Assembly (NCBI GenBank): GCA_904066235.2
Contig: CAJFCV020000001.1
Span: forward strand, 14,627,291 to 14,691,290
Direction of reading: 5' to 3'
DNA length: 64,000 nt
Origin: Bursaphelenchus xylophilus
Taxonomy: Eukaryota; Nematoda; Chromadorea; Rhabditida; Aphelenchoididae
In this document: positions 14,559-35,289 of the stretch, one piece after another
Layout of the letters: each line of letters begins with the position of its first letter
Numbering within the stretch: the stretch's first letter is position 1
Notes under the pieces: generated by a model
Databases searched by the model: none
What the model was told of the DNA's origin: nothing
Seen by the model: only the letters and a program-made list of their open reading frames with translations
Program-made: the position numbers and the translations under genes

Positions 14559-15933
14559 CACGGCATTCTGTACTTTTGGGACACAACCGGTCTCCATGAT
14601 TTTTTTCTATTTTTTCAAAGTAGACCTCCTTCTTTAATACATTGCTCGCTAGCCGTTGAAGCTAGAGACTTGAAAATTGGCATGGGTATAGAGTAAATGT
14701 TCCGCTTCCAGAATATATAAATATTGTAATGAACCCCGCGCTGTAAGCTCCACAATAAGATGCGAAAATATTTCATTCTTAAAACTTCTTGCACCTAAAA
14801 GGTCATTATGCAAGATCGAAATGACAAATTTTAAAATGCTGATGTGTGCAGAATTTTTTTTCTATCAGATACTTAAATTTCGTGGAGTTGTATACGAAAA
14901 TGGCTGTGCTACGTACGAAAAACTGAGTTTCATAGTGTGTTTTTTTGAAATTTTTGGAATATCTCTGCCCTCAGGGCACAGATAAATGAAGTTCCGACTC
15001 ACGTTTGTTGCCGATGATGACATATGTAGCCTTGCCAAATTACAATGTTATATCTTCAAAATCAAGGGAGCTATTCGCTTTTCAACTTTTTTCTCACTGA
15101 TGTACAACAACGATGTCAAGAATGTCCAACTATGGATTGTAGAGCTCGAAGAGCTCTACAAATTACCCGCTTACATCTTCTTCGTATCTTTAAAATTACG
15201 GCCGCCAGGGCGGCCGGAAATTTCGGTCGATTTTTGGTGCACCGTGCGAAAAAATCGCCCTCAGGGCAACAAGCGGAACTGAGCAAATTGATCATACGGG
15301 TGCTATTGGGAACAAAATAGACTACCATAGTGCCAAGTTTCAAGTCGCTACCTTCACTATCCCCCCACAAAGATGGGCTGAAGCCCATTTTCGATAAAAA
15401 AAAGTTGAAAAGCGAATAGCTCCCGTGATTTTGGAGATATAACATTGTAATTTGGCAAGGCTACATATGTCATCATCGGCAACAAACGTGAGTCGGAACT
15501 TCATTTATCTGTGCCCTGAGGGCAGAGATATTCCAAAAATTTCAAAAAAACACACTATGAAACTCAGTTTTTCGTACGTAGCACAGCCATTTTCGTATAC
15601 AACTCCACGAAATTTAAGTATCTGATAGAGAAAAAAAATTCTGCACACATCAGCATTTTAAAATTTGTCATTTCGATCTTGCATAACGACCTTTTAGGTG
15701 CAAGAAGTTTTAAGAATGAAATATTTTCGCATCTTATTGTGGAGCTTACAGCGCGGGGTTCATTACAATATTTATATATTCTGGAAGCGGAACATTTACT
15801 CTATACCCATGCCAATTTTCAAGTCTCTAGCTTCAACGGCTAGCGAGCAATGTATTAAAGAAGGAGGTCTACTTTGAAAAAATAGAAAAAAATCATGGAG
15901 ACCGGTTGTGTCCCAAAAGTACAGAATGCCGTG
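14559..15933. mobile_element. 1.38-kb long-TIR element with 5-bp target duplication
   Basis: The ends CACGGCATTCTGTACTTTTG and its complement are flanked by direct CGCTA copies (14554-14558, 15934-15938). The inverted arms run about 535 bp each (14559-15095 and 15399-15933) with near-perfect pairing, around a roughly 300-bp core that holds a smaller palindrome (TAGAGCTCGAAGAGCTCTA). No transposase ORF is present. CAC termini plus a 5-bp duplication recall Transib-type elements, but that assignment is inference. Transcription through it would give a very long hairpin. Confidence 0.85.
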
Positions 15934-16434: not shown

Positions 16435-16995
16435 GCACTGTGCGGTCAAAACAATCTTTTGCACTGTGCGGTGAGAAACGAGTAATTTTTGCACAGTGCA
16501 ATGGGAACAAATTATCGCACTGTGCAAAAAATCAAAAGCACAAATTAACTGCACTGTGCGAGATTTTTTGGAAAAATAAAATTGCACAGTGCAGACTTTT
16601 TTATGATTTTTTTGCACCGTGCGAAAAAGAAAAAATCAATTTTCGCACTGTGCAAAACTACTAAAAAATTCGCACTGTGCAAAAAAACAAAAGATCAGAA
16701 TGCACCGTGCAAAATCCGCGACAAAAGTCTCAGCCAAACCCCGCGAATTTTGGCACTGTGCGCCATCGCGGGGAACTCTTTTCTTTTTTTTTGCACTGTG
16801 CATCACTTTTGTCTTTTTTCTTGCACCGTGCACTACTTCACTTTTTTTTCTCTTTCCGCACTGTGCACATTCCAGATTTTTTTTGTTTTTTTTTGCACTG
16901 TGCACATCCCAGATTTTTTTGTTTTTTTGCACTGTGCACACCATGTTTTTGACTTTTTTTTCCGTGCATCCCACTTTTTTCTTTCTTTTGCACTG

Positions 16996-17205
16996 TACTA
17001 TACTAGTCGCGGAAAAAAGTCGGGGGATTTTTCTGCGACCCTGCACTGTGCATGAACCCGAAAAGTGCATTTGCACAGTGCAATTTTGTTGATTTTGCCT
17101 TATTGTCGCGCGCGATTCCCGTGTTTCGCAGCGACAAATCAACTTTTCGGAGCGCGACGGCCGCGAGAAATTCCCAGGACTTTTTTCCGCGACTAGTACT
17201 ATACA
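16996..17205. mobile_element. Small inverted-repeat element (MITE-like)
   Basis: TACTAGTCGCGGAAAAAAGTC near 17001 is mirrored by GACTTTTTTCCGCGACTAGTA ending near 17199. The interior of about 160 bp contains two GCACNGTGC motifs and GC-rich sequence (GTCGCGCGCGATTC). No ORF is supported. Confidence 0.6.
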
Positions 17206-17217
17206 CACCCCACTTTT

Positions 17218-17725
17218 ATCAGTCTGTCGGGAAAATAACGGCGGACCGTCGCAGCAAAATGTCTCGCCTCGCCGCTATCGCGCACCAAATCCCAAGCCGC
17301 GGCTTGCGGTCGCAAAGCGATGATGAGCGACTCCGAGGCGCGACGATCCGCCGTTTTTTTCCCGACAGACCGATACTAGTCCTTCCGGAAAGTCGCCGGA
17401 CTGAAATCAGCGACACGCACTCCGCGAAAACGAAAGTTCACTTTGCACTGTGCAATTTCGTGCCTTTTGCACAGTGCAATAGGCTTTTTTCGGCTGTCGC
17501 TCGCACCCTGACTTTTTTCGCACAGTGCATGTCGCCGATTTCCGTCCGGCGACTTTCCGGAAGGACTAGTATCAGTCTGTCGGAAAAATAACGGCGGATC
17601 GTCGCATCAAAATGTCTCGCCTCGCCGCTGTCGCGCACCAAATCCCAAGCCGCGGCTTGCAGTCGCAAAGCGATGATGGGCGATTCCAAGGCGCGACGAT
17701 CCGCCGTTTTTTTCCCGACAGACCG
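17218..17725. mobile_element. Composite of small palindromic elements
   Basis: Two near-identical 155-bp units (about 17218-17374 and 17571-17725) start CAGTCTGTCGGGAAAATAAC and end with its complement, enclosing CGCCTCGCCGCT...CCGCGGCTTG. Between them lies a third inverted repeat, ACTAGTCCTTCCGGAAAGTC at 17375 mirrored near 17570, which itself holds GCACNGTGC motifs. The layout looks like insertion of one MITE family next to or within another. Confidence 0.7.
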
Positions 17726-18557
17726 ATATCTTTTTTGCACAGTGCATCCCGCTTTTTTTGTCGCTCCTTTGCACTGTGCATACCCCCACTTTCATCTTTT
17801 TTCCGCACCGTGCACCTGACTTCTGTCGTTTTTTCGCACAGTGCATCCCAATTCCGTCTTTTTTCCGCACCGTGCATCCCACTTTTTTATCTTTCTTCGC
17901 ACTGTGCACACCATGTTTTTGTATTCTTTTTTTCGCACCGTGCATCCCACTTTTTTGTCTTTTTTTTGCACTGTGCACACCCCACTTTCATCTTTTTTCC
18001 GCACCGTGCACCTGACTTCTTGCGTTTTTTCGCACAGTGCATCCCACTTTAGCGACAAAAGTCTCGGCCAAACCCCGCGTTGTTTGGCACCGTGCGCCAT
18101 CGCGGGGAACTCTTTTCTCTTTTCTCTTTTCGCACTGTGCACACCCCAATTCCGTCTTTTTTTGCACCGTGCATCCCACTTTTTTCTTTCTTTTGCACTG
18201 TGCACACACCCCACTTTCATCTTTTTCCGCACTGTGCGCCCCACTTTTCTCTTTTTCCTAATTTCGCACAGTGCAGTTTTTGAAATCTTGCTCATCTTGA
18301 TGTAACCTTCCAAACTCCTACTTTCAAAACATTTTTTATCTAAAGAGCATGCAAAAATGACGTCAGCGGAAGTTTGACTGTACCGTAGACTTCTAGTTTT
18401 GCTCAAAAACAGGATTAATTTCGGGAAAAAAGGGAGTGTGTGGTCGAGTCTATGTAAGGGAGTGCCAAACAGACAAGTTGTTATTTCTTACTTCTTTGTC
18501 CGCAACTTGTGATAATGACTCATGAAATTTGAGCTGAACCTGACCTTGTTTGATGAA

Positions 18558-19145
18558 CAAAATGTCTAGTGCAATATAATTTTTGAAGATTTTTTGTTGA
18601 AAAATGAGATTTTTAAGTTGAAAAAGGATATGGAAATGTGATTTTTAGCAAATTTGCGGTTCAAAAATGACATTATTCTTCAAAATTCACCTTATTTTAA
18701 TGTCAGGATGTCTAGTGTAATATAATTTTTTGCAATTTTTTGAGGAAAAGTTGAATGGAAGAGATAGAAAATGCTGCTAAAATACGATTTATGACCTGCG
18801 ATTGTTACAAAAAATTTTTTTTTACAATAAATTTAAAAAAATATCATGATGACATATAAAAAATTTTTGATCTTAAACATCTTACAAGACATTAGGAACA
18901 AAAATAGGTCATAAATCGTATTTTAGAAGCGTTTTCTTTTTTTTTTCATTCAATTTTTAATCAAAAAATTGCAAAATTTTATATTACACTAGACATCTTG
19001 ACCCTAAAATAAGGCGAATTTTGAAGAATAATGTCATTTTTGAACCGCAAATTTGCTAAAAATCTCATTTTCATATCGTTTTCAATTTGAAAATCTCATT
19101 TTTCAAAAAAAAATCTTCAAAAATTATATTGCACTAGACATTTTG
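18558..19145. mobile_element. 588-bp inverted-repeat element built on the GTCTAGTGYAATATAA motif
   Basis: Arms of about 240 bp (18558-18804 and 18907-19145) mirror each other, starting CAAAATGTCTAGTGCAATAT. Each arm contains the GTCTAGTGYAATATAA word twice, about 145 bp apart (18563 and 18708 on the left). The centre holds TCATGATGACA. No target duplication or ORF is clear. Outer motif copies sit at the very ends. Confidence 0.75.
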
Positions 19146-19584
19146 CTCATTTTTTGATATAAATTTGGCTTTTTAATGTCAAAATCATTGATTTTCTGAA
19201 GCTTTTTACACTTTAACAACAAGAAAATACAATTTTTAAATATTTTTTATTGAAATCTTTTTAAATCTGATGGATTTATCACATTTTCCACGCGTACAAA
19301 CAAATAGATTACAAACAACGGCGGGGCTAAAATACGGGGTTTTCGTCGGAGAGAGAGCGAAATAGAGAGGAAAGAGCTCGGCTGAGATCGGGAAAGGACT
19401 AACAAAACATATATTGTACTACCCAACAACTACAACAATTCGGCTCTACAGGCGCGCAGATTGGTCAAACGGAGGGAATGTGGAACAAGCAGAGATCGCG
19501 AGGAGGATGAAGGCCGAGAATTTGAACCCGTCACCTTTTTTCCCGAATGTCCGGAGGGCTTTTTTGAAGCTTTTGAAAATGATT
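19146..19584. other. Spacer with a moderately GC-rich patch, no gene seen
   Basis: The patch at about 19320-19400 (CTAAAATACGGGG, GAGAGAGAGCGAAATAGAG) and a TATATTGTACTACC motif copy at 19411 are the only notable items. No reading frame is supported. Confidence 0.35.
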
Positions 19585-21375
19585 GCACGGTGCAGAAAAA
19601 GTTTGAGAATGCACCGTGCAGTCAAACATCGAAATTGCACTGTGCGAAAAATCGATTCAGTTTGCGACGACAAAACGCACTGTGCAATGAAAAATATTTG
19701 TCGTTGCACTGTGCAGTGGGAATTTAATTTTTAGAATGCACTGTGCGACAAATTTTGGGGCGCGACAATTGCACTGTGCGGTTGAAAAGTCGAAAATTGA
19801 AATTGCACTGTGCAAAAAAAATTACAAAATTGCACAGTGCGGATTTTTCAAAAGAAGGCAAAATTCTCGCTGCACTGTGCAGTGGGAATTTAATTTTCAA
19901 AATGCACTGTGCGATTGAAAAATCGAAAATTGAAATTGCACTGTGCACTGCAGGATGAGCCAAGTCTTTCTCCTTGGATGGTCAACTCTTCCTCTCAAAA
20001 TTCTTTTTTGTCAAGATTAATATAAATTTCTTTATGTTTTAATCTCCATACATCGACAGGACAATAACTCTAAAAGTAAGTTAAATTAACCCTCTTTCTA
20101 AATATGCAATGATTTTTTGCATTACATAAGTTTATCCTTGCACATTTAGCCATTGTTGCAGGTATACAAATTTAGCTGAATGCTGTTCGTTCTTGCGATT
20201 CCATGAACGAAATTTGAAAGTCTTCCCCACAAAAGAACCGGCGTCGAGCCTTCTTCGTGCCAGAATTGTTTCAGCATGAAAGGACTTACAATTTTTTTGT
20301 TGATTCGATTTTAGATATTACACTAGGTACTTTCGTAAGTTTAAGGCGAGATTAGGTCACATTTTACGTCATATATGGTCTAAATGGACAATAAAACTTT
20401 CTTTTAACATTCTTAACGTCGTAACAGTGATTTCCCCCCTTTTATTGTCGTTTTTGATTTTTTTTCAGATTTTAGGTATGGAACAACTTTGATGTATCCG
20501 CGGCCATAGATGTGTATTAGTACTTCGCAAACCATATTTCAAAGGTCCCTAGTCGATCTAAAACATGTTTAGAACAGTATGCGAGGTATTTGAGAATTTT
20601 TTGGATCCACGTTATACTTGATCACTTAGATCCTAAAACATCTTAAACCCGGGTTTGCAAGAATATTTATGTTGGGGACGGTTTAGTAATGGCTCACCTT
20701 TGTAGATTCCCGGGTTTAAACTTCAAAAACGTTAGATTTTGCCTGCAATTTGATAAAAGTACCTAGTGTAATATCGAAAATCGAATCAACAAAAAAAGTG
20801 TAAGTCCTTTCATGCTGAAACAATTCTGGCACGAAGAAGGCTCGACGCCGGTTCTTTTGTGGGGAAGACTTTCAAATTTCGTTCATGGAATCGCAAGAAC
20901 GAACAGCATTCAGCTAAATTTATATACTTACTACAATGTCTAAATATGCAAGGATAAACTTACGTAATGCAAAAAATTGTTGCAGAGTGAGAAAGAGGGA
21001 TAATTTGACTTACTTGTGGGGTTATTGTCCTGTCGAAACATGCAGATTAAAACATAAAGAAGTTTATATTAATCTTGACAAAAACAAAATTTTGGGGGGA
21101 AGAGTTGACCACCCAAGGGGAAAGACTTGGCTCATCCTGCAGTGCTGTGCGAAAAGTGAAGTCGCGGAAATTGCACTGTGCGGGCGAAAAAGTTTTCAAA
21201 TTTGGTTGCACAGTGCGAAAAAATTATAAAATTGCACAGTGCGGATTTTTCAAAAAATTTTTTGCACAGTGCGAAAATAAAAAAAATGCACGGTGCAAAA
21301 AAAATTATAAAATTGCACAGTGCGGATTTTTCAAAAATTTTTTGCACAGTGCGAAATTAAAAAAATGCACTGTGC
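19585..21375. repeat. GCACNGTGC cluster 2, split by a transposon
   Basis: The motif recurs from 19585 to 19946 and again from 21145 to 21375, with the 1.2-kb TIR element 19946-21144 inserted between. The insertion broke one motif copy: the left flank ends GCACTGTG and the right flank resumes CTGTGC, so the pre-insertion site was TTGCACTGTGCGAAAA. The motif cluster is therefore older than the element. Confidence 0.9.
19946..21144. mobile_element. 1.2-kb long-TIR element inserted into a GCACTGTGC site
   Basis: The termini CACTGCAGGATGAGCC and their complement are flanked by direct CTGTG copies (19941-19945 and 21145-21149). The arms are about 390 bp (19946-20336 and 20759-21144), with near-identical blocks such as AGAACCGGCGTCGAGCC. 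The interior holds no transposase. The arms include TCTTTCTCCTTGGATGGTCA, related to the dispersed GACTTGACC hairpins, and a TATTACACTAGGTAC motif at the inner end. CAC ends and a 5-bp duplication match the element at 14559, though the sequences differ. Confidence 0.88.
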
Positions 21376-21489
21376 AAAAAACTTTAAGATAAAAAAAATC
21401 TCCGGACATTCGGAAGTGTCAAAAAAAAAGACTAGAGCATGATAAATTAGCACCAAAAATCGGTCCAAAATTTGGGCACAAGTCGTATT

Positions 21490-21837
21490 TTAGCTGCGGC
21501 GCTCGGCGAGGATGTTCTCCACGATATCCGTCAGCGTCTCATGTTGTAATCGCCGTTGGTTTCGTCGCTGCGATCGCAATTTCAGCAGTTTCCGACTCTC
21601 TTTTTCCGCTCCCAGAGTCTGCAGAAGCTTTTCGAGGGCGCGCGTCGGCACATGCGCCAGTTGTTCGTCCTCGGAGAGAAGCGGCGCCGATCGTCGAACG
21701 GTCGCCGTACAACATCGAGTGCATTGGAGGGCCGTACTGTACTTTATGCAACGCATTCCGCACCCGCAGTCGGCCTGGATTCGGAGGAAAAGCGTGAAAA
21801 GTAGCATCGAAACTAGTGTTCTTGTGTGGGGACCCAT
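21490..21837 (-). CDS. Small secreted Cys-rich peptide precursor (candidate neuropeptide)
   Basis: A single exon of 115 aa starts right after an AATTTCAG acceptor, so it is either trans-spliced or a last exon. Residues 1-22 form a signal peptide (hydrophobic SMLLFTLFLRIQA). The predicted mature region then has six cysteines in the order C-x-C-x3-C-x8-C-x2-CC (DCGCGMRC ... QCTRCC), followed by a dibasic RR and a charged helical tail with further basic sites (RRNQRR, ERRS). A six-Cys peptide ending in CC just before a dibasic cleavage site recalls trissin-like neuropeptides, but the spacing is not identical and no family can be asserted. It is the only plausible gene in the repeat-rich desert, flanked by motif clusters on both sides. 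Confidence 0.55.
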   Translation of the reverse strand: MGPHTRTLVSMLLFTLFLRIQADCGCGMRCIKYSTALQCTRCCTATVRRSAPLLSEDEQLAHVPTRALEKLLQTLGAEKESRKLLKLRSQRRNQRRLQHETLTDIVENILAERRS

Positions 21838-21940
21838 CTGAAATTGGGAAAATTACTATTTTAGATGTGATAAATATTTTTTCGAATCGAAAAAACGGCA
21901 ATTTTCCCGATAAAACGTCATTTTTATCACTTTTTTCACT

Positions 21941-22588
21941 GCACGGTGCGAAAAAAAGAAAAATTTGAAAGTGCACAGTGCAAAAAAAGAAGAAGAAAAA
22001 CGGACTGCACGGTGCAACGAGGCTTCAAAATGCACTGTGCGAAAATTTTGAAGAAAAAAGGGAACGCACAGTGCGCGAAAAACAAAAGGGAATTTTTGTC
22101 TGCACAGTGCAAAAAGCGCGACAAAATTTTTTCGAAACGATTGCACAGTGCAGAACAAAGCTTTCGCACTGTGCAAAATAAAACGTTTGCACTGTGCACA
22201 GTGCGTGAAAAACAAAAGGGAATTTTTGTCTGCACAGTGCAAAAAGCGCGACAAATGTTTTCGAAACGATTGCACTGTGCAAAAGAAAAACTTTGCGCTG
22301 TGCACAGTGCGCGAAAAACAAAATGAACTTTTGTCTGCACAGTGCAAAAAGCGCGACAAATGTTTTCGAAACAATTGCACTGTGCAAAATAAAACGTTTG
22401 CACTGTGCAAAATTAAACGTTTGCACAGTGCAGTCAAAAAATTGTTTTGCACTGTGCCAAAAATCTGTCGCTGCCGCACAGTGCAGTGCATAAATCTTTG
22501 CACAGTGCAGTCAAAAATTTGCACTGTGCAAAACAAAACTCTTGCACAGTGCAGTCAAAACTTGTTTTGGGAAAAAACTGCACTGTGC
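21941..22588. repeat. GCACNGTGC cluster 3
   Basis: About two dozen copies are present, in part as a local triplication of GAAAAACAAAAGGG...GCGCGACAAA near 22075, 22205 and 22312. Fused overlapping copies also occur: GCACTGTGCACAGTGC at about 22190 is a perfect 16-bp palindrome made of two motifs. Confidence 0.9.
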
Positions 22589-24480
22589 GGCGCTTCAAAA
22601 ATTAGGGAAAAGTCGCGAAAATACTGTAAATAAATACTGTAAAATATAAAAATATAAGTTTTGAGAATCCACCGGTCAATAATTAAGCACAAAAAAGTCG
22701 GAAAGCACAAGAAATAAGTGGGAAATTACAAATTAAAATTCAGACCCCATCGCAGCGAGTGATCGTGAAAGAACAAAGAACAGCCCCAGGAATGGTCGGA
22801 GGTTCCCCCAAAAAGTGATTCGTCGCCTCCACGCCCAACCCGCCCACCGTTTCGTTGATTGCACTGTGCGGTTCCGAAACCGCGCTGCACTTTACGCCGC
22901 CGGGGACAAAGCGTACGCATTCCGGGGGGATTTCGAAATCGGGACGGGATGGGAATTTCTTGGAAATTTGGGGAATTCGCCCGCAGGCGATTGTGGGGCG
23001 ACGGGGGGCCCGGCGTGAGACGGAAAACGTGAAAAACACGTGGGAAAGGCATTGGAAATGAAGGTGCCTTGATGGAAACTGATTTTTAGGAAGTTGGGAT
23101 ACTGTAACAACAATTTTTTGGAGAAAAAAAATAAATTTTTTGAAAAAAAAAATATTTTTTTTTTCCTATTTTACCTCAAAAATGACCAAAATACCTCACA
23201 AAATTATCGGAAAATACTCTGAAAATTTTTTACCTACCGTAACTACCCCGGAATCACCGAAAAAATCAAGAAATTTCGCTGAAAAGACAAATCTGCCCCG
23301 AGGCGAATTTCACAAAAGTCACTGAATTGTTGTCGTCTACACGGACCCCAATGCAATTTACAATAGAAAACCGGTTCCCCGTCCCTTCGCCTCTCCGATT
23401 TCCGAACATTTCGCGAACTACGGTAATCATCGTATAAAATGTCCCTCCTTCTGTAAGCCCCCCTTCATGGGCGTGCGCCACGGAAAAACAGCTGATAAAT
23501 GCGTGAAGGCCGTTTGTGGAGGGGGATGAAAAAGCGATCCCTTCACTGTTTTGAATTTGGGAGGAGGGTTGAAGGAAACTTTTATACTGTACTTGTACTT
23601 TCGGCCTTTTTTACAATGTTTACAGGGAAAGAAAACAAACGACGACCTTCGAAAGGCGGTGGAAGAAAGTGTAACGTTCGGGATAATGTTGTCGGAACAC
23701 AAATCTGGGAACAAAACAGATGAATTTAGGGATAAAAACGTTTTTGTGACCTGATATCTGAAGGATAATATCAGAAAAAATGGGTGTCCAAAAAAGTTTT
23801 AAAAACGATCTATGACCTTTAGAGTCTCTATTCTTTGTTCCATTCAACTTTTTTTGCAAACGGCAAAATCAGCATGGGAGAAACAGTTGACCCAAAAGTG
23901 TCAAGTGTTTCTCTCATTGCGAAAAACGACTGGTAACTGTCGGAAAAATAAAAAATTGGTTGTCTGAGTTTGCAGAACGCCATAAAAAGCCAGTTAACTT
24001 TTTTTAAGTTCAAAATTTTATATTATACTTGACCTTCTGATATATCATAGACAAAAAATAAGCCATTTAACCGGCAGAACACTTCACAATAGCCGAAAAT
24101 ACAATAACAATGCATTATAAAATTCATAGACAGCACAATACCTCCAAAAAATTCTCCATTTACATCAAAAACCTGGCCAAGAATTACAAAAAACATCCGA
24201 AAAGCTTTCATAAACAAGTCTCCCCGTCTCCTATCGGATTCGCAGAACCCTCTCGCGTTGCCCGTGATGTTTTGAACCTGCAAAAAAGGTCGACACACGA
24301 AGAACGAACGTGTTACGTACACATATCAAACCACATATTTTGGCGGCCTAAAGAGCACTTAATGAGCGACGTCACAAAATATGCATCACTCCACCGAAAA
24401 TGTAGGCCAATGACTCCAACGGTGTGCTGCTATTTTGGGAGGAACGATGTGGACCCGAGAAATTATAAAGGGAATTGATT
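22589..24480. other. Spacer without a supported gene
   Basis: It contains a GC-richer patch (22740-23060) with one isolated GCACTGTGCGG at 22861 and overlapping frames on both strands, none with convincing coding character. A GACTTGACC-family hairpin lies at about 23878-23920 (GAGAAACAGTTGACCC ... GTCAAGTGTTTCTCTC). A TATATTATACTTGACC motif is at about 24018. Confidence 0.4.
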
Positions 24481-25210
24481 GCACAGTGCAAAAAAATAAT
24501 GGTTGCTCGCACAGTGCAAAAAGAAGAAAGGAAAGAAATTCTGCACGGTGCAAAGAGAAAATAAAATTTGCACAGTGCAAGAGAATAAGTTTGTCGCTGA
24601 AAATGCACGGTGCAAATAAAAAACAAATTTTGCACGGTGCAAAAAGAAAGAAAAAACTTTGCACAGTGCAAGAGAATGAGGTTGTCGCTAAAAATGCACA
24701 GTGCAAAAAAAATAAAGTTCCATTGCACAGTGCGGTAAAAAAATGTTTTCATTCAGTTGCACGGTGCAAAAGAATGAGATTGTCGCCGGGATTGCACTGT
24801 GCAAAAGTCTAACTTTGAACTGCACTGTGCAACAAAAGTAAAGTTCCATTGCACAGTGCGGTAAAAATTCGTGTTCGATCAATTGCACGGTGGAAAAGAA
24901 TAAATTTGTCGCTGGGATTGCACTGTGCAAAGTCTAACTTTGAACTGCACTGTGCAAGAAAAATAAAGTTCCATTGCACAGTGCGGTTAAAACTTGTTTT
25001 CGTTCAATTGCACTGTGCAAAAAATGGAATTTGTCGCCGGGATTGCACTGTGCGATCAAATTTTTTTTTCATCCGACTGCACTGTGCAAAAAGTTAAAAA
25101 TTATCGGATGCACAGTGCGGCGAAAGGGGAAAACTTTTTTTTGCACAGTGCAACCCCAAAAAAGTTCCATTGCACAGTGCAAGATGAAAAAATTTCCCCC
25201 CGCACTGTGC
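24481..25210. repeat. GCACNGTGC cluster 4
   Basis: Dense motif copies are present, many with the flank GCACAGTGCGGT followed by AAAA. The spacer phrase TTTGTCGCTGGGATTGCACT repeats several times, and a block from about 24590 is duplicated at 28079-28400 in cluster 6. Confidence 0.9.
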
Positions 25211-25676
25211 AAAAATTGCTTCCGAAATAGAAAGGGTCGTAAACAAGTGCAAGATAAGAAAGGGCCGTAAAATTAAGTGAGATCGATGAAATTATGACCA
25301 TAAAATTCGCGGAAATGATCTTTGGTATCAGGCATGCAACAGTAGACTCAAATTTGTAGGGGAAACATCTCTTACTGTGAGAATTTTACTTCGCGATATG
25401 AGAAATAGTCAATAACATCAAACAAAAAATAGTTTTAGGTGCCACTCAGTGAAATTCTCATCAAAAACGATCACGAATTTCCCGTTACAAACAGTCATAT
25501 GGAAACTGATAATATTTTTTAAAACGTGACATTGAAAGTGTCCATTCGACTAAACTACAGGTGGAACAGGCGCGAAAGTTGTGTAAAACGACTGTTTGGG
25601 ATGTATAGTGTGAGCAGTGATGTTTGGATTTTGTTTACTTTGCAGAAATTGGAAGATTGGAAAAGTTTTGAATTTT

Positions 25677-26656
25677 GCACTGTGCAGTGGAAAAATGGAT
25701 AATTTTTTACTATTGGGAAACTGAATTTTGTCGCGAAATTGACAATAATAGAGAGCATAAGCTCTGAAAAACTTATACATTACAAAAAAATTTTGAAAAA
25801 GTCCGCACAGTGCGGTGATTTTTTCAGTTTTGAATTTTGCACTGTGCAGTGGGAAAATTGGTCGTTTTTTACTATATAGAAGCTAAATTATGTTGCGAAA
25901 TTGACATAAATGTAGATCAACAGGTCTGAAAAAATTGCACATTACAAAAAAAATTTAAAAAAGTCCGCACAGTGCGGTGATTTTTTTCAGTTTTAGATTT
26001 TGCACTGTGCAATGGAAAAATTGGTCATTTTTGACAAGTTAAAAACCAAATTTCACAGTGAAATTGACATCAATGGAGAGTATAAGCTCTGAAAAACTGG
26101 CACATTACAAAAAAATTTTAAAAAAGTCCGCACAGTGCGGTGATTTTTGCGTTTTTGAATTTTGCACTGTGCAGTGGGAAGATTGGTTATTTTTGACAAG
26201 TTAAAAACCAAATTTCACAGTGAAATTAACGTCAGGGTAGAGTATAAGCTCTGAAAGATTGCACATTACAAAAAAAATTTTGAAAAAGTCCGCACAGTGC
26301 GGTGATTTTTTCAGTTTTGAATTTTGCACTGTGCAGTTGAAAAATTGGTCGTTTTTGACAATTTAAAAACTAAATTATGTTGTGAAATTAAGATCAATGT
26401 AGAGTATTGGGTCTGAAAAACTTGCACATTACAAAAAAATGTTGAAAAAGTCCGCAAAGTGAGTTGATTTTTCCAGTTTTAGATTTTGCACTGTGCAGTT
26501 GAAAAAACTTGTCAGTTATTGAAAGTAGAAACAATAAATGAATTGAAATTAGATTCAGGAGGACTCTAAGGACGGTCTCAAACTGCACAGTAAAAAAATA
26601 TATCTAAAACTTTCGCACAGTGCGGAAAATTTAAGGATTCAGAAACTGCACTGTGC
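25677..26656. repeat. GCACNGTGC cluster 5: 162-bp tandem array
   Basis: GTCCGCACAGTGCGGTGATT recurs at 25801, 25963, 26126 and 26288, and in decayed form (GTCCGCAAAGTGAG) at 26450, a period of 162-163 bp. Each unit has two motif copies about 35 bp apart, GCACAGTGCGG and GCACTGTGCAGT, then about 115 bp without a motif. This is the only cluster where motif pairs are evenly phased. Confidence 0.92.
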
Positions 26657-27832
26657 AGTCAAAAAAGTTTAAAAAATATAGAATTCTAGGCCTAAAAAAT
26701 AATTTCAATACGCTTAAAACTGATTAAATTTGTCATGATGACATAATTTTTGAAAAATTTTAAAATTTTCATTTTGAAATTTTTTTTCAAAATGAAAATT
26801 TTGACTCAAAACGTTAAAAATTTAAAAATTTAGGCTCCCTAAACAGAATTACGCAATAAATTAGGGGACAAATCGATAAAATGAAACAAAAATTTCGAGC
26901 GAACAAAAAGCCCTCCGGGCGAAACGTAGAAGACAAAGAATAAGATTGTTTTATCAGCGGGTAATATGACATGCCCGGAGGCTGGGCGCTCCCACTTTCT
27001 CGTAATGATGTAACAAGACTTCAGTTTCGGGATTTTTAAGAGGCTTTTACCTTGTTTTCGGAAATAATTTCCATGTGAAATTGTTTTTGAGTTTGTTATT
27101 GAAAGATTTGTGGGTTTGACCTGTTTTGATCGTACGGTAATAAAGGATAGGTGAGATAGGAGCCTCTGGACATGATCTATGAGACAAAAAATGTCTTGGA
27201 AAAATCAAAAAATCCAATTTTTGAAAAAAAAATTTTTGAAAAAAAATTAGATAAAACTTGTCAAAAATTTAGATCACAATTTTTTATGACTTATTTGAGA
27301 TTTTTAGTCATCATTTTGCAAAAAAAATTAAGATTTTTAAGTCGAAAATTGAAAAAATTTTAAATTTTTTCCATTTTTTCGAATCCGGAAATTTGGCATT
27401 CTGTTTCAAGTATAGAAAAAACTATTTTTTTCCATGAAAAATTCAGGGAGAAACAGCCAAAAAATTGCCAAACCAAACACAACAACACAATTATTTTTGA
27501 AAATTTTCTACAGACAAAAACACCCTCCCCTCCCCTATTATATGTTCTCATTATATACCAGTTCTTGGCATCATATTTTTAATTCACCAGTAAGTTTGAG
27601 AAATAAAAATTTCATGACGAATAATCCAGATTTCTCTCCGATTTTCTCTCCGGAAGTCGGGAGAACACAAGAACAAAGCTATTTAGATATTACACATATT
27701 GCGTACAGGTGTTCTGAATATATTTTTTTCATAATACCAAAAGTTTAGTTTTCAGAAAAAAAAACTTTTAAATTTTAGTACAAAAACTGTTGTTTTTGGA
27801 GGTAAAAAATAGCAAAAAATGAAAAAAAATCT
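26657..27832. other. AT-rich spacer, no gene seen
   Basis: It holds a TGTCATGATGACA palindrome at about 26731, a short GC patch (26905-26995, CCCGGAGGCTGGGCGC) and long A/T runs. Short frames here are low complexity. Confidence 0.4.
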
Positions 27833-28574
27833 GCACAGTGCAACGCCAAAATTAAAAAAAATTTCGCACTGTGCGATCAAAAATTTAGAAAAATCTGCAC
27901 GGTGCGGTCCAAAAAATTCGCACAGTGCAATTTGAAAATTTTTTTTGCACCGTGCAGACATTTATTGTTTTTTCTTTCTGCACTGTGCACACTAAAATTT
28001 CACATTTCCCTTTCGCACAGTGCAGAACGATATAGATAAATGGTCGCACTGTGCAATAAGGAACGGCGCACAGTGCAAGAGAATAAGCTTGTCGCAGAAA
28101 ATGCACGGTGCAAATAAAAAACAAATTTTGCACGGTGCAAGAGAATGAGGTTGTCGCTAGAAATGCACAGTGCAAGGAAAGAAAAAACTGCACAGTGCGG
28201 TCAAAATTTGTTTTCGATCAATTGCACAGTGCAAAAGAATAAATTTGTCGCCGGGATTGCACTGTGCAAAAGAATAAATTTGAACTGCACTGTGCAAAGA
28301 ATTAAAATTCCATTGCACAGTGCGGTCAAAATTTGTTTTCGATTTATTGCACAGTGCAAAAGAATAAATTTGTTGCTGGGATTGCACTGTGCAAAAAAAA
28401 AATAAAATTAAAAATGCACCGTGCGACAAAACATTGCGCACGGTGCAGTCAAAAAATTGCACTGTGCAAAATTTTTTTTTTTTAGTTTTTCGCACAGTGC
28501 AAGAAAAATCGCGCACAGTGCAGTCAAAAAATATTTGCACTGTGCAAAAAAAATTTATTTTTTTCGCACAGTGC
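27833..28574. repeat. GCACNGTGC cluster 6
   Basis: Dense motif copies in A/T-rich spacer. Bases 28079-28400 match cluster 4 (24590 onward) in spacer as well as motif, so the two clusters share a duplicated segment. Confidence 0.9.
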
Positions 28575-29009
28575 AGTCAAAAAAAAATCAAAAATTCTAC
28601 CGTATTCCCCCGCCTTTACCACTGCTCTAAACTCGAGAGAAAGTAAACGTAATCTCGAATTAAAATGACGTCGTCCCCCTTCTTCCTCGTGTACAATATC
28701 GCCCTAGAAGAAAAAGTTATTTTTCCCCGCGATTTGCTATTTTAATATGGCCCAATTAAGCGAGGCGCGCCGGAAAAGCTGTGTCGCAAGTGGAAGGCGA
28801 AGACAAAAACAAGTTTTTATAACGTATTTATACTCGCGAATATTTATACAGTGGATTAAGAGGGCGAGGAAAAAGTTTGAGTCATCTTTTTTTTGGATGA
28901 CAAATGACCTGATACAGTAAGAATGTTGCGCAATGGAGGTGTTGGAATGTTTTCATCAAATTTCGTAACGCCCATTCAACGAGGAAAAATTTTTGAAATT
29001 TTTTCTGCT
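28575..29009. other. Spacer between clusters 6 and 7
   Basis: No gene is seen. A GAGGCGCGCCGG block lies near 28765; otherwise it is AT-rich. Confidence 0.35.
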
Positions 29010-29541
29010 GCACGGTGCAATTTTTGATTTTGTTTTGATTGCACTGTGCAAAATTTCGATTCATGTCGCATAATCAAAAAAATTCGACTGCACTGTGCAG
29101 GAAGCTTCTTCTGGTCCTTATTTTAACGCACTGTGCACATAAAAAAATCAAATTCAAATTGCACGGTGCAAAAATATTTTTCCGACTGCACTGTGCAATA
29201 TTTTATGTTGATTGCACTGTGCAAATGTTGTGGCTTTTTCTGCACAGTGCAAAATTCCGATGTCGCACGATCAAAAAATTTCTACTGCACAGTGCAAAAC
29301 CAGGTTTTCTCGTCGCACTGTGCAAATTTTTGTCTCTTCCTGCCGCACTGTGCAAAATGAAAAACAATCAAATTCATGTCGCACGGTGCAAAAAATGTTT
29401 TCCGACTGCACTGTGCAATTCTTTATTTTGATTGCACTGTGCGGAATTTCTTTTTTGTCGCACTTCTGCCATCCGCACCGTGCGAAATCATTTTTTCATT
29501 TGCACAGTGCGAAAAATGTAAAAACTATAATTGCACGGTGC
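29010..29541. repeat. GCACNGTGC cluster 7
   Basis: About twenty copies at 20-35 bp spacing. The central base is more often C or G here than in cluster 5. The reading frames across it are motif artefacts. Confidence 0.9.
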
Positions 29542-32147
29542 GGTTCAGAAATAATCATTCCCGCAGGCGTTGTAAGACGCGGGGGAGGATGATGTGTGTT
29601 TTTTCGGGTTGAGTCATGACGAAATTTATGACAATTTTTTTTTGATTACTAATATTACAATTTGCTTACACTGAGTCAAATACATATAAGCCTATAAAAG
29701 TCGAAAAAAGTACTGTAGATCAAAAATGAAATCAACAAAAAGTCTGCAAATAAACTTAAAATACCGAAAAATATCGTTACAAAACAAATTACGCCAAAAA
29801 ATTCGAAAAATGTCATATTATCCATAAAAAAAAAACAAAAAACCGCTTCCGCCACCGCGAATTTGGCATTTCCCGACCAGAAATGACCTTATCCAGGAGC
29901 CGTCCATTCTCTTCGCAAGCGAAAGTCGTATCGGATATCAAACACTATCGGAATTGTCATCGAACCCGAGAAACCCTCAAATTTCAACATTTCCTCAATT
30001 TTTGTTTACTTATAAACGGCTTGCAGTCTGCGGAATGATGAGAAGATGATTTTAGGTTGTGTTGTCGCGATTCGTCGCGACGAAAAGAGTTCCGAATCCC
30101 CGTTTGAACTACAAAATACAAAGTTTGCGGGAAAGGGAATTATTATGACGTCATTTTGCGATGAAATTGGGAAATTTGGTGATAACGGTTAAGAAGTCCG
30201 AGCACAAGGTTCGATTTACGCATTTTTAGAGCCTTCTTTGACCACTTTTTGGGGTAAAAGTGAAGTGTCAGGTTTTCGTGTCGGGACACAAAGTATATTG
30301 AAATTAGAGTAAAAAAAACTAAAACAGATTAAGGAATGGCAGTTTTGGGCGCAAAGTCCTCCTACACATGTTTACGACCCATTTCCGGGTCGATTTCAGC
30401 GAAAAATTGGTTCTCAAATTGTCGTGGTGGGACCAAAAATTAAGCCTAGAAATATTAAAATTCTTCAATGAAACTGTAACAATTTGCGTTATAAAGCCCA
30501 TAATTGTAAGTTTAAAACTATTTTTGACAATTTTTAAGAACTCCAAGTTTTCGTGGTGGGACCCAAAATTTTCAACAAATAAAATCATTGAAACTAAAAA
30601 CTAGTATTATAGAGCTAAATTTGAGAAAAAATAACACAAAATCATCTCAGAACAGTGACAAAAAAATTGCTGTTCAATTGAAAAATGAAACGCTAATTAT
30701 TTAATTGTGGGTGCGGCTTATGACGTCATCACGAAACTACTGTAAGAAACGTGTAATCAAATTCCACGGGGATTGATCACACCGAGACACCCCCGGTGAC
30801 CATTCCGACACGTTGATTACACCCAAATTTTAGGCGATAAAAACTAATGGATGGGTTCCGGGAAAACCCATTAAATTAAGTGTAAAAACTCCTGGGGGCA
30901 TAAGTTACAAAATCGCAAAATATTTTTTACAGAGAGCTCAACACATACGCAATCTTTTTAAGTAATTTTGATTTGGCTATTTCAAGTTCTTAAAGGTGTC
31001 ATCATGACGGGATTTTTGGAATTTTGTTAATAACAGGTTATTTTGAGTATGCAAGATATGAAAATTTCTTCAGAATTGCATGAGAAAGTAGAAAAAAGAA
31101 TGGTTAAATAAAATAGTTGTATATCATAGATCTAAAAGTTGTCATGATGACGGATTTTTTGGAATTTTTGGAGGTAACCCGTGATAATTAGGTAGAAAAT
31201 ATTTTTTGCAAGTCCAGAATTACACACAAAACAGAACTGTGAAACAAAATGATCATAAATGTCAGAAATTAAAGGTGTCATGATGACGGATTTTCTGGAA
31301 ATTTTTGAAACTTTGAATTCGGCTTAAACCCGGATATCTGCCAATTTTATACGAGTAGAATATCAAAAAAAAACAACAAATACCAGCCGGAAATTTCCAC
31401 CCCCAGCCCAAATGCCCTCAGGCATTTCGGACTTTCCCAGCTCCAATTACCGTAATCCATCCGCGACACCAACACAACAAAACCATCGGATTCGACCCGC
31501 CGAACTCACTAATCCCTACATTGCGTCATCGAGTCGTTCTAACGAGGTTAAGCGTCGAACTGACGTGGCCTGCGGCAATCTTTCCCGTTTCTTGCGAACC
31601 CCCCTCGAAACTATAGGCCAAATGACGTCATCGGGTCGGGAGTGGATCGCCGACTCCTTTGGAGGTTGTGCAAACACTACTTGTATACATTTTGTAAACA
31701 GTAATCGGTCAATTCGGAGTGAGTTTTTTCCGCACGGTGCGATCAAAAATTTTTTTGAAAAGACTGTTTTAAGAGTACGGTGGATTTGGGAGGGGGCGAG
31801 AAACTTCATGAAATGAACTCTAGAACACACGACACACCATTTGTTAGTCTATTAGTCATCCTTTTGCAAACAATTTACGAAATCTACAGTAATCGAAAAA
31901 ACGGTTTTTGAAGGGAAAAACGGGGAAATCTTGTGTGTAGAAGAAGACTCAAATTTATGAAGATGGAATATTCAACACTTCTTTATGATTGTCAGTGCAT
32001 TTTTTATTGAAATTTGGGGAAATTTTGAGTTTGCAAGTTTTCGTGGTGGGACCCAAAAATTGAAGAAAATGAAAAAATCTTGATTTCAATAAATCTTTAG
32101 GAGTAAAAATCAAGAGAAAATAAAATTTAGTTGATTTGTATACTAAC
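29542..32147. other. 2.6-kb spacer with three TGTCATGATGACGG repeats, no gene
   Basis: GTCATSATGACGGRATTTT units occur at 30998, 31141 and 31277 (spacing 143 and 136). Two GTGGTGGGACC motifs lie at about 30422 and 30552 and another near 32040. A GC-richer stretch at 31388-31740 has an open frame of about 130 codons with no recognisable domain and a lone GCACGGTGC at 31732. No gene is supported. Confidence 0.45.
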
Positions 32148-33718
32148 TGCACCGTGCAAAACAAATTTTTTTTATTGCACTGTGCAAAAATTCTGAAAAA
32201 AAAATAAAAAAAAAGTTATCCGATTTCAATGAAACTTCAAAAAAAATGTAGACGACAATTTTTTATTTCCCCCACAAAAACTTCAAGTCGCATTATACAG
32301 AAATATCCGCGTTATAAAGAATTGAAATTCAAAAAATTCCATTTCCGGGTCGAAAAATAAAAATCATTAAAAATCAAAAATTTCAAGCATTTTTTTCGCT
32401 CAAAAAACTTTCTATTTCCGGAGGAAATTTTTCACATTCCATTCTCCCCTCTCCTCCATATTACTATATTGCACTTGATCACACCTTCAAAGAGCCCAAA
32501 CCTCGCGAGGAATTCGTTCCCCGCTTCGGATTAGCGGCTGATTAGACCCTGAAGGAAAGAAAGCAAACCAATTTACCCAGAATTTTTTTTTATTTTTATC
32601 TCAAAGACAAACTGCGCAAGCCCTGCGGGCTTTCACTGTGATTAAATAAAAAAAACATTACAAATCGAGTAATTTTTGTCGGGAACCAGACAAAAAGTAA
32701 AGTAAAGTGTTGTTTTTTGATGTCGAAAATGGTCAGAAAATGATCGCACAGTGCAAAAAAATGATTTTGAACTGCACAGTGCAGTAAAAATAAATGTGCA
32801 CAGTGCGAAAAAAAATATTTTTTAAACTGCACAGTGCAAGAAAAAAATATTTTGCACGGTGCGAGAAACAGTTTTTGAACTGCACTGTGCAAACAAAACA
32901 ATTTTTTGCACAGTGCGGAGGAAACACTTTTCAACTGCACTGTGCAAACAAAAGAAATTTTTTGCACAGTGCATCGAAAAAATTTTGCACCGTGCGAAAA
33001 AATGATTTTGAACCGCACAGTGCAGTAAAAATAAATGTGCACAGTGCGAAAAAAAACATTTTTGGGCCGCACTGTGCAACCAGAAATGTTTTTGCACAGT
33101 GCGAAAAAAATTATTTTGAACTGCACTGCGCAAACAAAAAAAATTTTTGCACAGTGCGGAGGAAACACTTTTCAACTGCACTGTGCAAACCAAAGAAATT
33201 TTTTGCACAGTGCATCGAAAAAATTTTGCACCGTGCGAAAAAATGATTTTGAACCGCACAGTGCAGTAAAAATAAATGTGCACAGTGCGAAAAAAAACAT
33301 TTTTGGGCCGCACTGTGCAACCAGAAATGTTTTTGCACAGTGCGAAAAAAATTATTTTGAACTGCACTGCGCAAACAAAAAAAATTTTTGCACAGTGCGG
33401 AGGAAACACTTTTCAACTGCACTGTGCAAACCAAAGAAATTTTTTGCACAGTGCATCGAAAAAATTTTGCACCGTGCGAAAAAAATAATTTTTAGGCCGC
33501 ACTGTGCAGTAAAAATAAATGTGCACTGTGCATTGAAAAAATTTATTGCACAGTGCGGAGAAAAAATTTGGAACTGCACTGTGCAAATAAAAAATTTTTT
33601 TTGCACAGTGCGAAAATAATGAATGCAAACCCCACTGTGCATTGAAAAAATCTATTGCACAGTGCGGAAAAAAATTTGAACTGCACTGTGCAGTAGAAAA
33701 AATAAATTTGCACAGTGC
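32148..33718. repeat. GCACNGTGC cluster 8 with a 241-bp tandem triplication
   Basis: Two copies lie at 32148-32187, then a dense run from 32746 to 33718. Within it a 241-bp unit is repeated about three times (frames starting at 32794, 33035 and 33276), with the last two nearly identical. Each unit carries some nine or ten motifs. One motif in two of the units has mutated to GCACTGCGC, showing the decay was copied by the duplication. Confidence 0.9.
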
Positions 33719-34121
33719 GAAAAAAATTATTTTGGGCCGCAGTAAAGAAAAATTTTTGCACGGAAAAATTGATTTTATAGCGCTTTTCGTACTATCGCGC
33801 CCTAATTAACCAAAAAACGAACTTTAATTGCGAAATTGCCGGAGGGCATTTTCTTGGAAATCTCCTTTCCGGGGGTCAATTGGCCAAAAAACGAAAGGAT
33901 TCGGGTTTCGTATAAACGCAAACATTAGATTTGACAGGAAAAAAGGAGCTCTTGACGCTCGGAATGTATTATTTTATATTATACTAGGGAATACATTAAA
34001 AAATGGGAGAAAAAAGGAGAGTAGGAGGGTAAAAATAGATCAGGAAAGGTCAAGAATGAGGCTTCTACCCTTTTTTGGAGTTTGCAAAAAATTCTGCAAA
34101 AAAAATTTTTTTCAAAATTCT
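33719..34121. other. Spacer between clusters 8 and 9
   Basis: No supported gene. A TATATTATACTAGG motif lies at about 33974. Short frames are low complexity. Confidence 0.35.
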
Positions 34122-35289
34122 GCACTGTGCAAATCAAAAAAAAATTTTTTTTGCACAGTGCAATTCGATTTTTTGAATTTTTTTTGAAAAATTCTAGGGC
34201 TAGGTCACATCTGCTCTCTTGTAAATTTAAAATTCCATGATTTCAATTAAAAATGAAGCCGGAAGGATGGAAAAAAAGAAAATAATCCGAGGGACTCAAG
34301 GAAAACGAAGCGATAAGAGAATACAGTACTGAATTGCTTTTAAAATTGTTATTTTTGGGTCTCACAAGCAAAAAAAAATGTGTTTACAAACTTTATTATC
34401 GATCGCACAGTGCGAAAAAAACATTTTATATTTATTTTCCTTTGCACAGTGCAAAAAAATAAAAATGATTTTTGCACCGTGCAACGGAAAATGATGTGAA
34501 TTTTAAAGTGAAGCAAGAAGTAAAATTATAAAATAAAGTTTTGTAGAGGCTCCTTGAACAGTTTAAACTTTGAAAAGATCAAGATCCGAGAGAATTTACT
34601 GCACAGTGCAGATAAATCCAAACCCCAAAATTTTGCACAGTGCAATGAATAAAAAGGCAATTTTTGATAAATTACAGTAAGACCGCAGTTCAATAGGGAC
34701 TGTAAATAAAATCTATACCTCTGAGAAGTACAACAGAACCAAAAAATCCAAAAAAATCACTGCACAGTGCAAAGAAATGAAGATTTTGAGGTTTGCACTG
34801 TGCGATGACAAAATTGGGCATTTTGTGTAATAAAAATAAGTTTCAAGAGTACGAAATTTAATTCAATTAGGATCTGTAGGAACTATGCAGACGAAAAATG
34901 TCACATTTTTTTACAATTTTTGCTGCACTGTGCAATTTTTGGACAATTTTTAATTTTGCACGGTGCGATGAAAAAAACTAGCAATTTTTGGGGGAAAAGC
35001 TTGGCCAAGGGGCGAAAATTTTTATCCGGTGAACATTTGGGTTGTTTAGAAGCAATACCACGCAAAATTTTTTTTTTTTTATTTTCTGCACTCTGCAATT
35101 TTTGGACAATTTTAAATTTTGCACAGTGCGGAAGAAAAAACTAGTAATTTTTGGAGGAGAAGCTTGGCCAAGGGGCGAAAATTTTTATCCAGTGAAAACT
35201 TAGGTTATTTAGAGGCAGATTGTGCAAAAAAATACTTTTTATTTTCCGCACTGTGCAACTTTCGGACAATTTTAAATTTTGCACAGTGC
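34122..35289. repeat. GCACNGTGC cluster 9 (sparse)
   Basis: Copies are less dense here. A segment of about 150-170 bp is duplicated (34920 and 35090 onward, AAGCTTGGCCAAGGGGCGAA in both). One copy has decayed to GCACTCTGC at about 35088. This marks the right edge of the clustered region. Confidence 0.85.

Follow-up and report, generated by a model that had tools for sequence, protein, structure and literature searches.

Holocentric nematodes each have an abundant short sequence motif of their own, found in satellites or as isolated copies, as described in the consulted sections of the work of Subirana and Messeguer (PMC3634726, PMC4595182). According to the same sections, nematode satellites are scarcer in chromosome centres, and the C. 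elegans family Cele_Fam_1_35, related to MINISAT1, contains two palindromic 13-base regions and lies in terminal autosome regions only. In Meloidogyne, the sections concerned of two reports (PMC3694981, PMC9673304) describe a CENP-B-box-like or 19-bp box in satellites that are otherwise 32-74% identical, with units near 170 bp. A further report describes, in the section used here, m1m2 motif pairs within CERP2/CELE2 miniature inverted-repeat transposable elements (MITEs) that are bound by HIM-17, a host germline protein (PMC9757741). Here we compare with these systems a 64,000-nucleotide stretch of the Bursaphelenchus xylophilus genome (C1:14627291-14691290; hereafter the window), in which the near-palindrome GCACNGTGC is clustered in arrays.

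The motif and its carriers in the window

There is, in our judgement, about an even chance that this motif, in its full form YGCACNGTGCR, is the binding site of a sequence-specific dimeric protein that would place one subunit on each half-site, and that selection keeps the half-sites. We infer a dimer from the dyad and its variable centre. The observations that carry this reading are the copy number and clustering of the motif, the arm bias of a genome-wide sample, base-specific conservation within duplicated units, and the occurrence of the motif in three unrelated carriers.

The window contains 213 exact copies of GCACNGTGC, where a first-order Markov model would predict 0.27. No other of the 256 possible 4-N-4 palindromes is as frequent; the runner-up, AAAA-N-TTTT (140 copies against 42 expected), is a simple A/T run. 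All but three of the copies (210/213) fall inside 16435-35289, the others being at 15239, 47799 and 58077. The flanking bases are part of the motif: a pyrimidine stands 5' of the core in 211 and a purine 3' of it in 212 of the 213 window copies, and over 20 sources the same rule holds for 481/487 and 479/487 copies, respectively. The full motif is written YGCACNGTGCR; genome-wide counts given below refer to the nine-base core GCACNGTGC. Neighbouring copies less than 80 bp apart (n = 182) have a mean distance of 31 bp and a median of 30 bp. A 10-10.5 bp period of AA/TT is no stronger in seven arrays than in four control stretches.

The original prediction had spoken of some two hundred copies or more in this interval, mostly with A or T in the centre, of few decayed copies, of fused copies forming a 16-bp palindrome near 22190, and of few copies elsewhere. 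The 210 exact copies agree with it, as do the centres (A or T in 175/213), the fused palindrome at 22189-22204, and the 208 perfect against 7 one-mismatch sites in the window clusters (8.6 kb), which include the decayed forms that it had named, GCACTGCGC at 33123 and 33364, GCACTCTGC at 35088 and GCACGGTGG at 24885. The scarcity elsewhere holds for the window, with three copies, of which that at 15239 was absent from the earlier list, and fails for the genome, with 41,616. The arrays and elements are distributed as follows (window coordinates, all unstranded).

16435-16937: irregular array, 16 copies of GCACNGTGC
16994-17205: short inverted-repeat element (arms 16994-17040 / 17159-17205), two motif copies inside
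17373-17571: 199-bp inverted-repeat transposon (MITE), three perfect motifs and one decayed site
17737-18274: irregular array, 16 copies
19585-19946: irregular array, 12 copies
21173-21375: irregular array, 8 copies
21941-22588: irregular array, 23 copies, including the fused 16-bp palindrome
24481-25210: irregular array, 23 copies; segments 24570-24931 and 28068-28395 are a diverged duplicate pair
25664-26656: 162-bp satellite, two motif positions per unit
27833-28574: irregular array, 26 copies
29010-29541: irregular array, 17 copies
32746-33718: array, 34 copies, 241-bp repeat unit
34405-35289: motif pairs, about every 160-163 bp from 34601 on; units otherwise strongly diverged

Three carriers can be distinguished. 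The first consists of irregular arrays of 16-34 copies at about 30 bp spacing. The second consists of satellites with one motif pair per 160-163 bp, found at 25664-26475 and 34601-35247 and in two arrays of locus L017 (2570-3210 and 9132-9619; sets G and H below), in which alternate units appear unrelated in the printed alignment. The third consists of small inverted-repeat elements, among them the MITE at 17373-17571, which has TA at its borders and bears the motif just inside one terminal repeat and in mid-element. A genome-wide search, in which 40 of 1414 first-look candidates were scored, gave at least 40 near-full-length copies of this MITE with an identity of 91% or higher; they occupy all six large contigs, chromosome centres included. 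Related terminal repeats, in several variants, enclose the motif at three further loci (L016, L019, L020). Twelve MITE loci were fetched for an alignment and 11 were used, L039 being left out as a different match had been selected there. In these 11 copies, which are the best matches to the window copy and so biased to intact ones, all 24 fixed columns in the three consensus motifs are invariant, while the other interior columns vary by 5.4% and the ends by 2.4%; one motif's centre is strongly variable, and the fourth site is decayed.

Such elements suggest another origin, which we regard as unlikely: the motif would be recognised by a transposase, or by some factor that a MITE family requires, and the arrays would be the expanded remains of such elements. 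That a TA-bordered element in at least 40 copies carries the motif, and that variants of its terminal repeats enclose the same motif, is what this origin would explain. However, inverted repeats in the 250-bp flanks of the 16-34-copy arrays do not rise above randomly paired flanks (p 0.42-0.99), the 160-163 bp satellites look unlike such elements, and the MITE also occupies chromosome centres, where the sampled places of the motif mostly do not lie. A single common carrier for all arrays was not supported, inverted repeats being found around the small elements only.

Block duplication is common in the window. When the 180 spacers were scored against dinucleotide-shuffled ones, 95 proved to have a relative in the window above the 95% level and 75 above the 99% level; a cruder mononucleotide test gave 125/180. 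The proposal that most copies do not derive from simple tandem copying is thus half right, since it suits the 85 spacers without a relative and fails for the 95 with one.

We note further arrangements around the arrays. A 14-bp perfect inverted repeat, CCGAATGTCCGGAG, spotted by eye at 19543-19556 / 21400-21413, encloses the arrays at 19585-19946 and 21173-21375, which in turn flank a 337-bp inverted repeat (19997-20333 / 20756-21092); all of these together could be one larger element. Another inverted-repeat element, at 15000-15490, has arms of about 93-100 bp and the single motif copy at 15239 in its middle. At locus L027, an array of 31 copies fills the 1302 bp that separate two open frames; its borders, GTAGTT and TTTTTTCAG, resemble those of an intron, which it is likely to be. 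The frame downstream gave sub-threshold Pfam matches only.

Half-sites, spacers and centres in duplicated units

Conservation was compared within duplicated units, with motif columns taken as those in which any unit carries a perfect motif. Five sets of near-identical units were used, for which the comparisons that differ are given below.

Set A (162 bp, 5 units): fixed half-site bases 8/160, spacer 265/1396, centre 0/20
Set B (241 bp, 3 units): fixed 2/216, spacer 32/427, centre 6/27
Set C (24570-24931 against 28068-28395): fixed 1/88, spacer 30/208, centre 2/11
Set E (125 bp, 3 units): fixed 2/96, spacer 48/237, centre 4/12
Set F (105-130 bp, 3 units): fixed 2/92, spacer 22/196, centre 2/12
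Sum: fixed 15/652 (2.3%), spacer 397/2464 (16.1%), centre 14/82 (17%)

More diverged sets gave, for fixed bases and spacer, 3/96 against 395/804 in D, 0/96 against 318/824 in G, 4/72 against 143/388 in H, and 7/432 against 169/835 in B with a fourth unit added, all in alignments that lean on the motif itself. Among gap-free windows, 24/28 motif windows are unchanged against 85/346 control windows, and in 20,000 resamplings so low a level of change never came up. An earlier, coarser tally from BLAST pairs (fixed 315/14,810, spacer 7,620/28,010, centre 808/1,837, flank 600/3,586) was not used further, as many of its pairs link motifs of different copies. Half-sites held fixed about a variable centre would be expected if a dimer bound without touching the middle base.

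The same duplicated units bear on a neutral explanation, in which the arrays are a minisatellite whose cores are kept alike by block duplication, recent spread or gene conversion in the absence of selection. The common duplicated blocks and the 95 spacers with a relative suit this explanation, as does the centre: in sets B, C, E and F, four of the five, it is more changeable than the spacer (14/62 against 132/1068 for the four combined), an effect that exchange among copies differing in their centres could have. Nevertheless, half-sites change about seven times less than the spacers of the very same units, and recent spread fits poorly because those spacers have diverged. Strong conversion, moreover, should nearly randomise the centre, whereas only 14/82 centres changed, and none in set A, albeit in small numbers. 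Neutral upkeep of the cores appears quite unlikely to us.

The original prediction had also named a hairpin-forming array, which would be selected for pairing between neighbours, in DNA or RNA. Four stretches fold better than their dinucleotide shuffles (z -3.7 to -5.4), as any palindromic repeat would. Yet neighbouring copies are complementary no more often than shuffled ones, either in their centres (99/285 against 96.9, sd 5.8) or in their inner flanks (156/284 against 160.5, sd 6.9), and only 2/16 two-mismatch sites are palindromic, both of them TCACAGTGA in two tandem units. Selection for hairpins is accordingly an exceedingly improbable cause, and this part of the prediction was not borne out.

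Genome-wide distribution and the surroundings of the arrays

The assembly comprises 78.25 Mb; six of its contigs are large (12.1-15.1 Mb), and two are small, at about 15 kb. It holds 41,616 exact copies of GCACNGTGC against 178 of the same pattern reversed, which served as the control, and 60,270 against 8,238 when up to one mismatch is allowed; 18,654 sites against 8,060 have exactly one mismatch. Close pairs (21-49 bp) number 25,615, the control having none.

Positions were sampled with three flank-tagged patterns, listing 28/28, 37/37 and 100/105 places. From the 100 rows of the last pattern, 25 were removed that belong, as judged by eye, to one protein-coding family, and the remaining 140/165 rows were merged into 95 independent places at least 20 kb apart. 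The family removed bears the motif, contains a segment read as ALCKFYGL, by which it is probably protein-coding, and occurs on all six large contigs. The sample is biased to the arms: the middle half of the chromosome holds 21/95 places (p = 4e-8), 35/120 with the removed rows restored, and only 1 of the 10 independent places (12 in all) found with a pattern requiring two adjacent copies. Sampled places are present on all six large chromosomes, and C1 has 30/95 of them against 18.3 expected.

Samples of 10 kb along C1 gave 14, 8, 1, 0 and 0 copies at 1.5, 3, 4.5, 6 and 7.5 Mb, and 1, 0, 0 and 32 copies at 9, 10.5, 12 and 13.5 Mb. The 10 kb to the left of the window contain 45 copies and the 10 kb to its right none. 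The first 10 kb are devoid of copies in each of the six large contigs and in C7, one of the small ones, and hold 60 in C8, the other; C1, C4 and C7 start with repeats of the TTAGGC type. We note that C7, which thus begins with telomere repeats, also bears a 441-aa open reading frame (ORF; L015:1135-2457, plus strand) that matches Transp_Tc5_C (1.5e-15), HTH_Tnp_Tc5 (5e-5) and, below the cut-off, DDE_1 (0.003), so that a DNA-binding domain of the CENP-B/Tc5 type is present in the genome.

The original prediction would have been refuted by even density or by descent of all copies from one tandem or transposon family, and neither was observed: the sample is enriched in the arms, and the copies do not trace to one family, although local duplication and one transposon family explain part of them. 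The analogy with meiotic pairing centres, chromosome-end arrays read by zinc-finger proteins of the ZIM/HIM-8 type, fared worse in its simple form. Pairing centres share with our arrays a conserved short motif in clusters, and the sampled places, those of the two-copy pattern included, appear to lean strongly to one arm on C4 (11 left, 1 right) and more weakly on C6 (2 left, 8 right) and C3 (4 left, 8 right). But a single motif is present on all six large contigs and, in the same sample, both arms are occupied on C1 (14 left, 16 right), C2 (8 and 11) and C5 (7 and 8), while the 25,615 close pairs do not form one major cluster per chromosome; the known motifs, as described in the section of PMC9071541 used here, are 12 bases long, concentrate at that end of each chromosome where the pairing centre lies, and have four related proteins as their readers. 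An identity as pairing centres is therefore very unlikely, which does not lower the case for a clustered binding platform.

A different chromosomal role would follow if a conserved box in divergent satellites of nucleosome length helped to place holocentromeric chromatin, as a CENP-B-box-like element might. In four arrays (A, D, G and H) a motif pair returns every 160-163 bp, the alternate units of G and H look unrelated, and such boxes are known from Meloidogyne, as described in the consulted sections (PMC9673304, PMC3694981). Across the genome there are 14,429 pairs 149-169 bp apart, compared with 12,587 at 109-129 bp and 12,242 at 189-209 bp, a moderate excess of about 16% over these two neighbouring ranges. 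Our sample is biased to the arms, in contrast to the centromere-like satellites of C. elegans, described as fairly evenly distributed (PMC4595182, in the section consulted), and we consider a centromeric role decidedly improbable. A programmed-elimination signal (SFE) was rejected; such signals are described in the available section of PMC13370393 as essentially limited to some tens of telomere-addition sites, compared with 41,616 copies here.

Other features of the window are set apart from the motif. Between two arrays, an ORF at 21493-21840 (minus strand) starts directly after TTTCAG and encodes a small, cysteine-containing protein that is possibly secreted, and for which no Pfam match was found. 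A 138-bp tandem repeat at 41269-43083 (13 copies, 90% matches) contains a 394-aa ORF. GC content is 0.53-0.58 in 57001-59000 against 0.39 window-wide. A polybromo-type gene at about 53-61 kb has a bromodomain and an HMG box above the Pfam cut-off and a BAH domain below it; a protein search with the bromodomain frame returned five proteins, one of which is labelled polybromo-1 by its source, and polybromo-1 was also found in the PDB. The window as a whole is consequently not a gene desert.

A candidate arm-marking site and its known counterparts

The chromosome arms of nematodes have a high repeat content, and we know of no DNA sequence by which a cell would recognise a given stretch as arm. 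The motif studied here, present in tens of thousands of copies and with half-sites that stay fixed amid drifting surroundings, is a candidate for such an arm-marking sequence. If a reader protein exists, arm chromatin, recombination or transposon control might depend on it.

In the reading that we favour, the binding site of a dimeric protein, each array would present many binding sites at once. Local duplication of blocks some 55-240 bp long would enlarge the arrays, and the small inverted-repeat transposons that bear the same site would disperse the seeds. Less certainly, and by analogy, the arrays may be markers of the repeat-rich arms, where their most likely part would be to nucleate or anchor repressive chromatin. 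The original prediction of a binding platform is upheld to the extent that half-sites are held while spacers drift, which supports a sequence-specific platform, and is abandoned in its simple likening to pairing centres. A bolder extension, to which we give quite a small probability, is an address system like that of the CENP-B box, in which one transposase-derived dimer would read all 41,616 sites in transposons, satellites and arrays and so write arm identity; it presumes a worm with chromosome-wide centromeres and nucleosome-length satellites.

Several points weigh against a dimeric binding site. No binding protein was found for the palindrome; a search for THAP domains gave no match here nor in 14 control genomes, and so has no bearing on a reader. 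The copies show no clear helical phasing (vector strength 0.09-0.12 at 10-11 bp, n = 182), and selection on each of 41,616 redundant sites would be demanding. Roughly ten thousand of the one-mismatch sites genome-wide appear to be decayed copies, and decay is also evident at L019 (14 perfect and 9 one-mismatch sites) and L017 (45 and 11). The centre is unevenly variable, being unchanged in set A and above the spacer in the other four sets taken together, where its variability is close to that of G/C-rich spacer columns, which vary more; it exceeds the spacer in the BLAST-pair count as well. Exchange between motif copies could contribute to the changes of the centre, and selection is not the sole reading of the pattern. 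Finally, counts inside one array are not independent, so that the effect size deserves more weight than the p value.

A text search of the literature for GCACNGTGC, TGCACTGTGCA, GCACWGTGC, TTGCACAGTGC, GCACTGTGCAA and TGCACAGTGCA, with supplements outside its scope, returned no title on such arrays among those listed, and the word "motif" is absent from the main text of the C. becei genome paper (PMC12132450). Like the nematode short-motif satellites, the motif is abundant, enriched in the arms and partly tandem. It differs from the motifs of Subirana and Messeguer in being held while its spacers differ, and none of the counts in Table 2 of PMC3634726 (at most 24,492, in B. malayi, from redundant contigs) reaches its 41,616 copies. 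Their programs, according to the sections consulted, leave out irregular repeats, and programs of this kind would probably miss many such arrays.

With the ZIM/HIM-8 motifs, our arrays share short-motif clusters on chromosomes, but those motifs are several and mark one end per chromosome, whereas here one motif occupies both arms on several, a comparison made by description (PMC9071541). The likeness to CERP2/CELE2, as far as the consulted section describes them, lies in motif pairs inside the inverted repeats of MITEs in thousands of copies; ours, by contrast, is a single palindrome that also forms dense arrays. As in the Meloidogyne satellites, in the sections consulted, a box far more conserved than the rest of its unit sits in divergent units near 170 bp, and protein binding and a transposase-type link have been proposed for theirs. 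Unlike the Meloidogyne boxes, however, the motif of B. xylophilus is a perfect dyad with a variable centre, forms irregular 30-bp arrays, is biased to the arms in our sample, and is present in MITEs.

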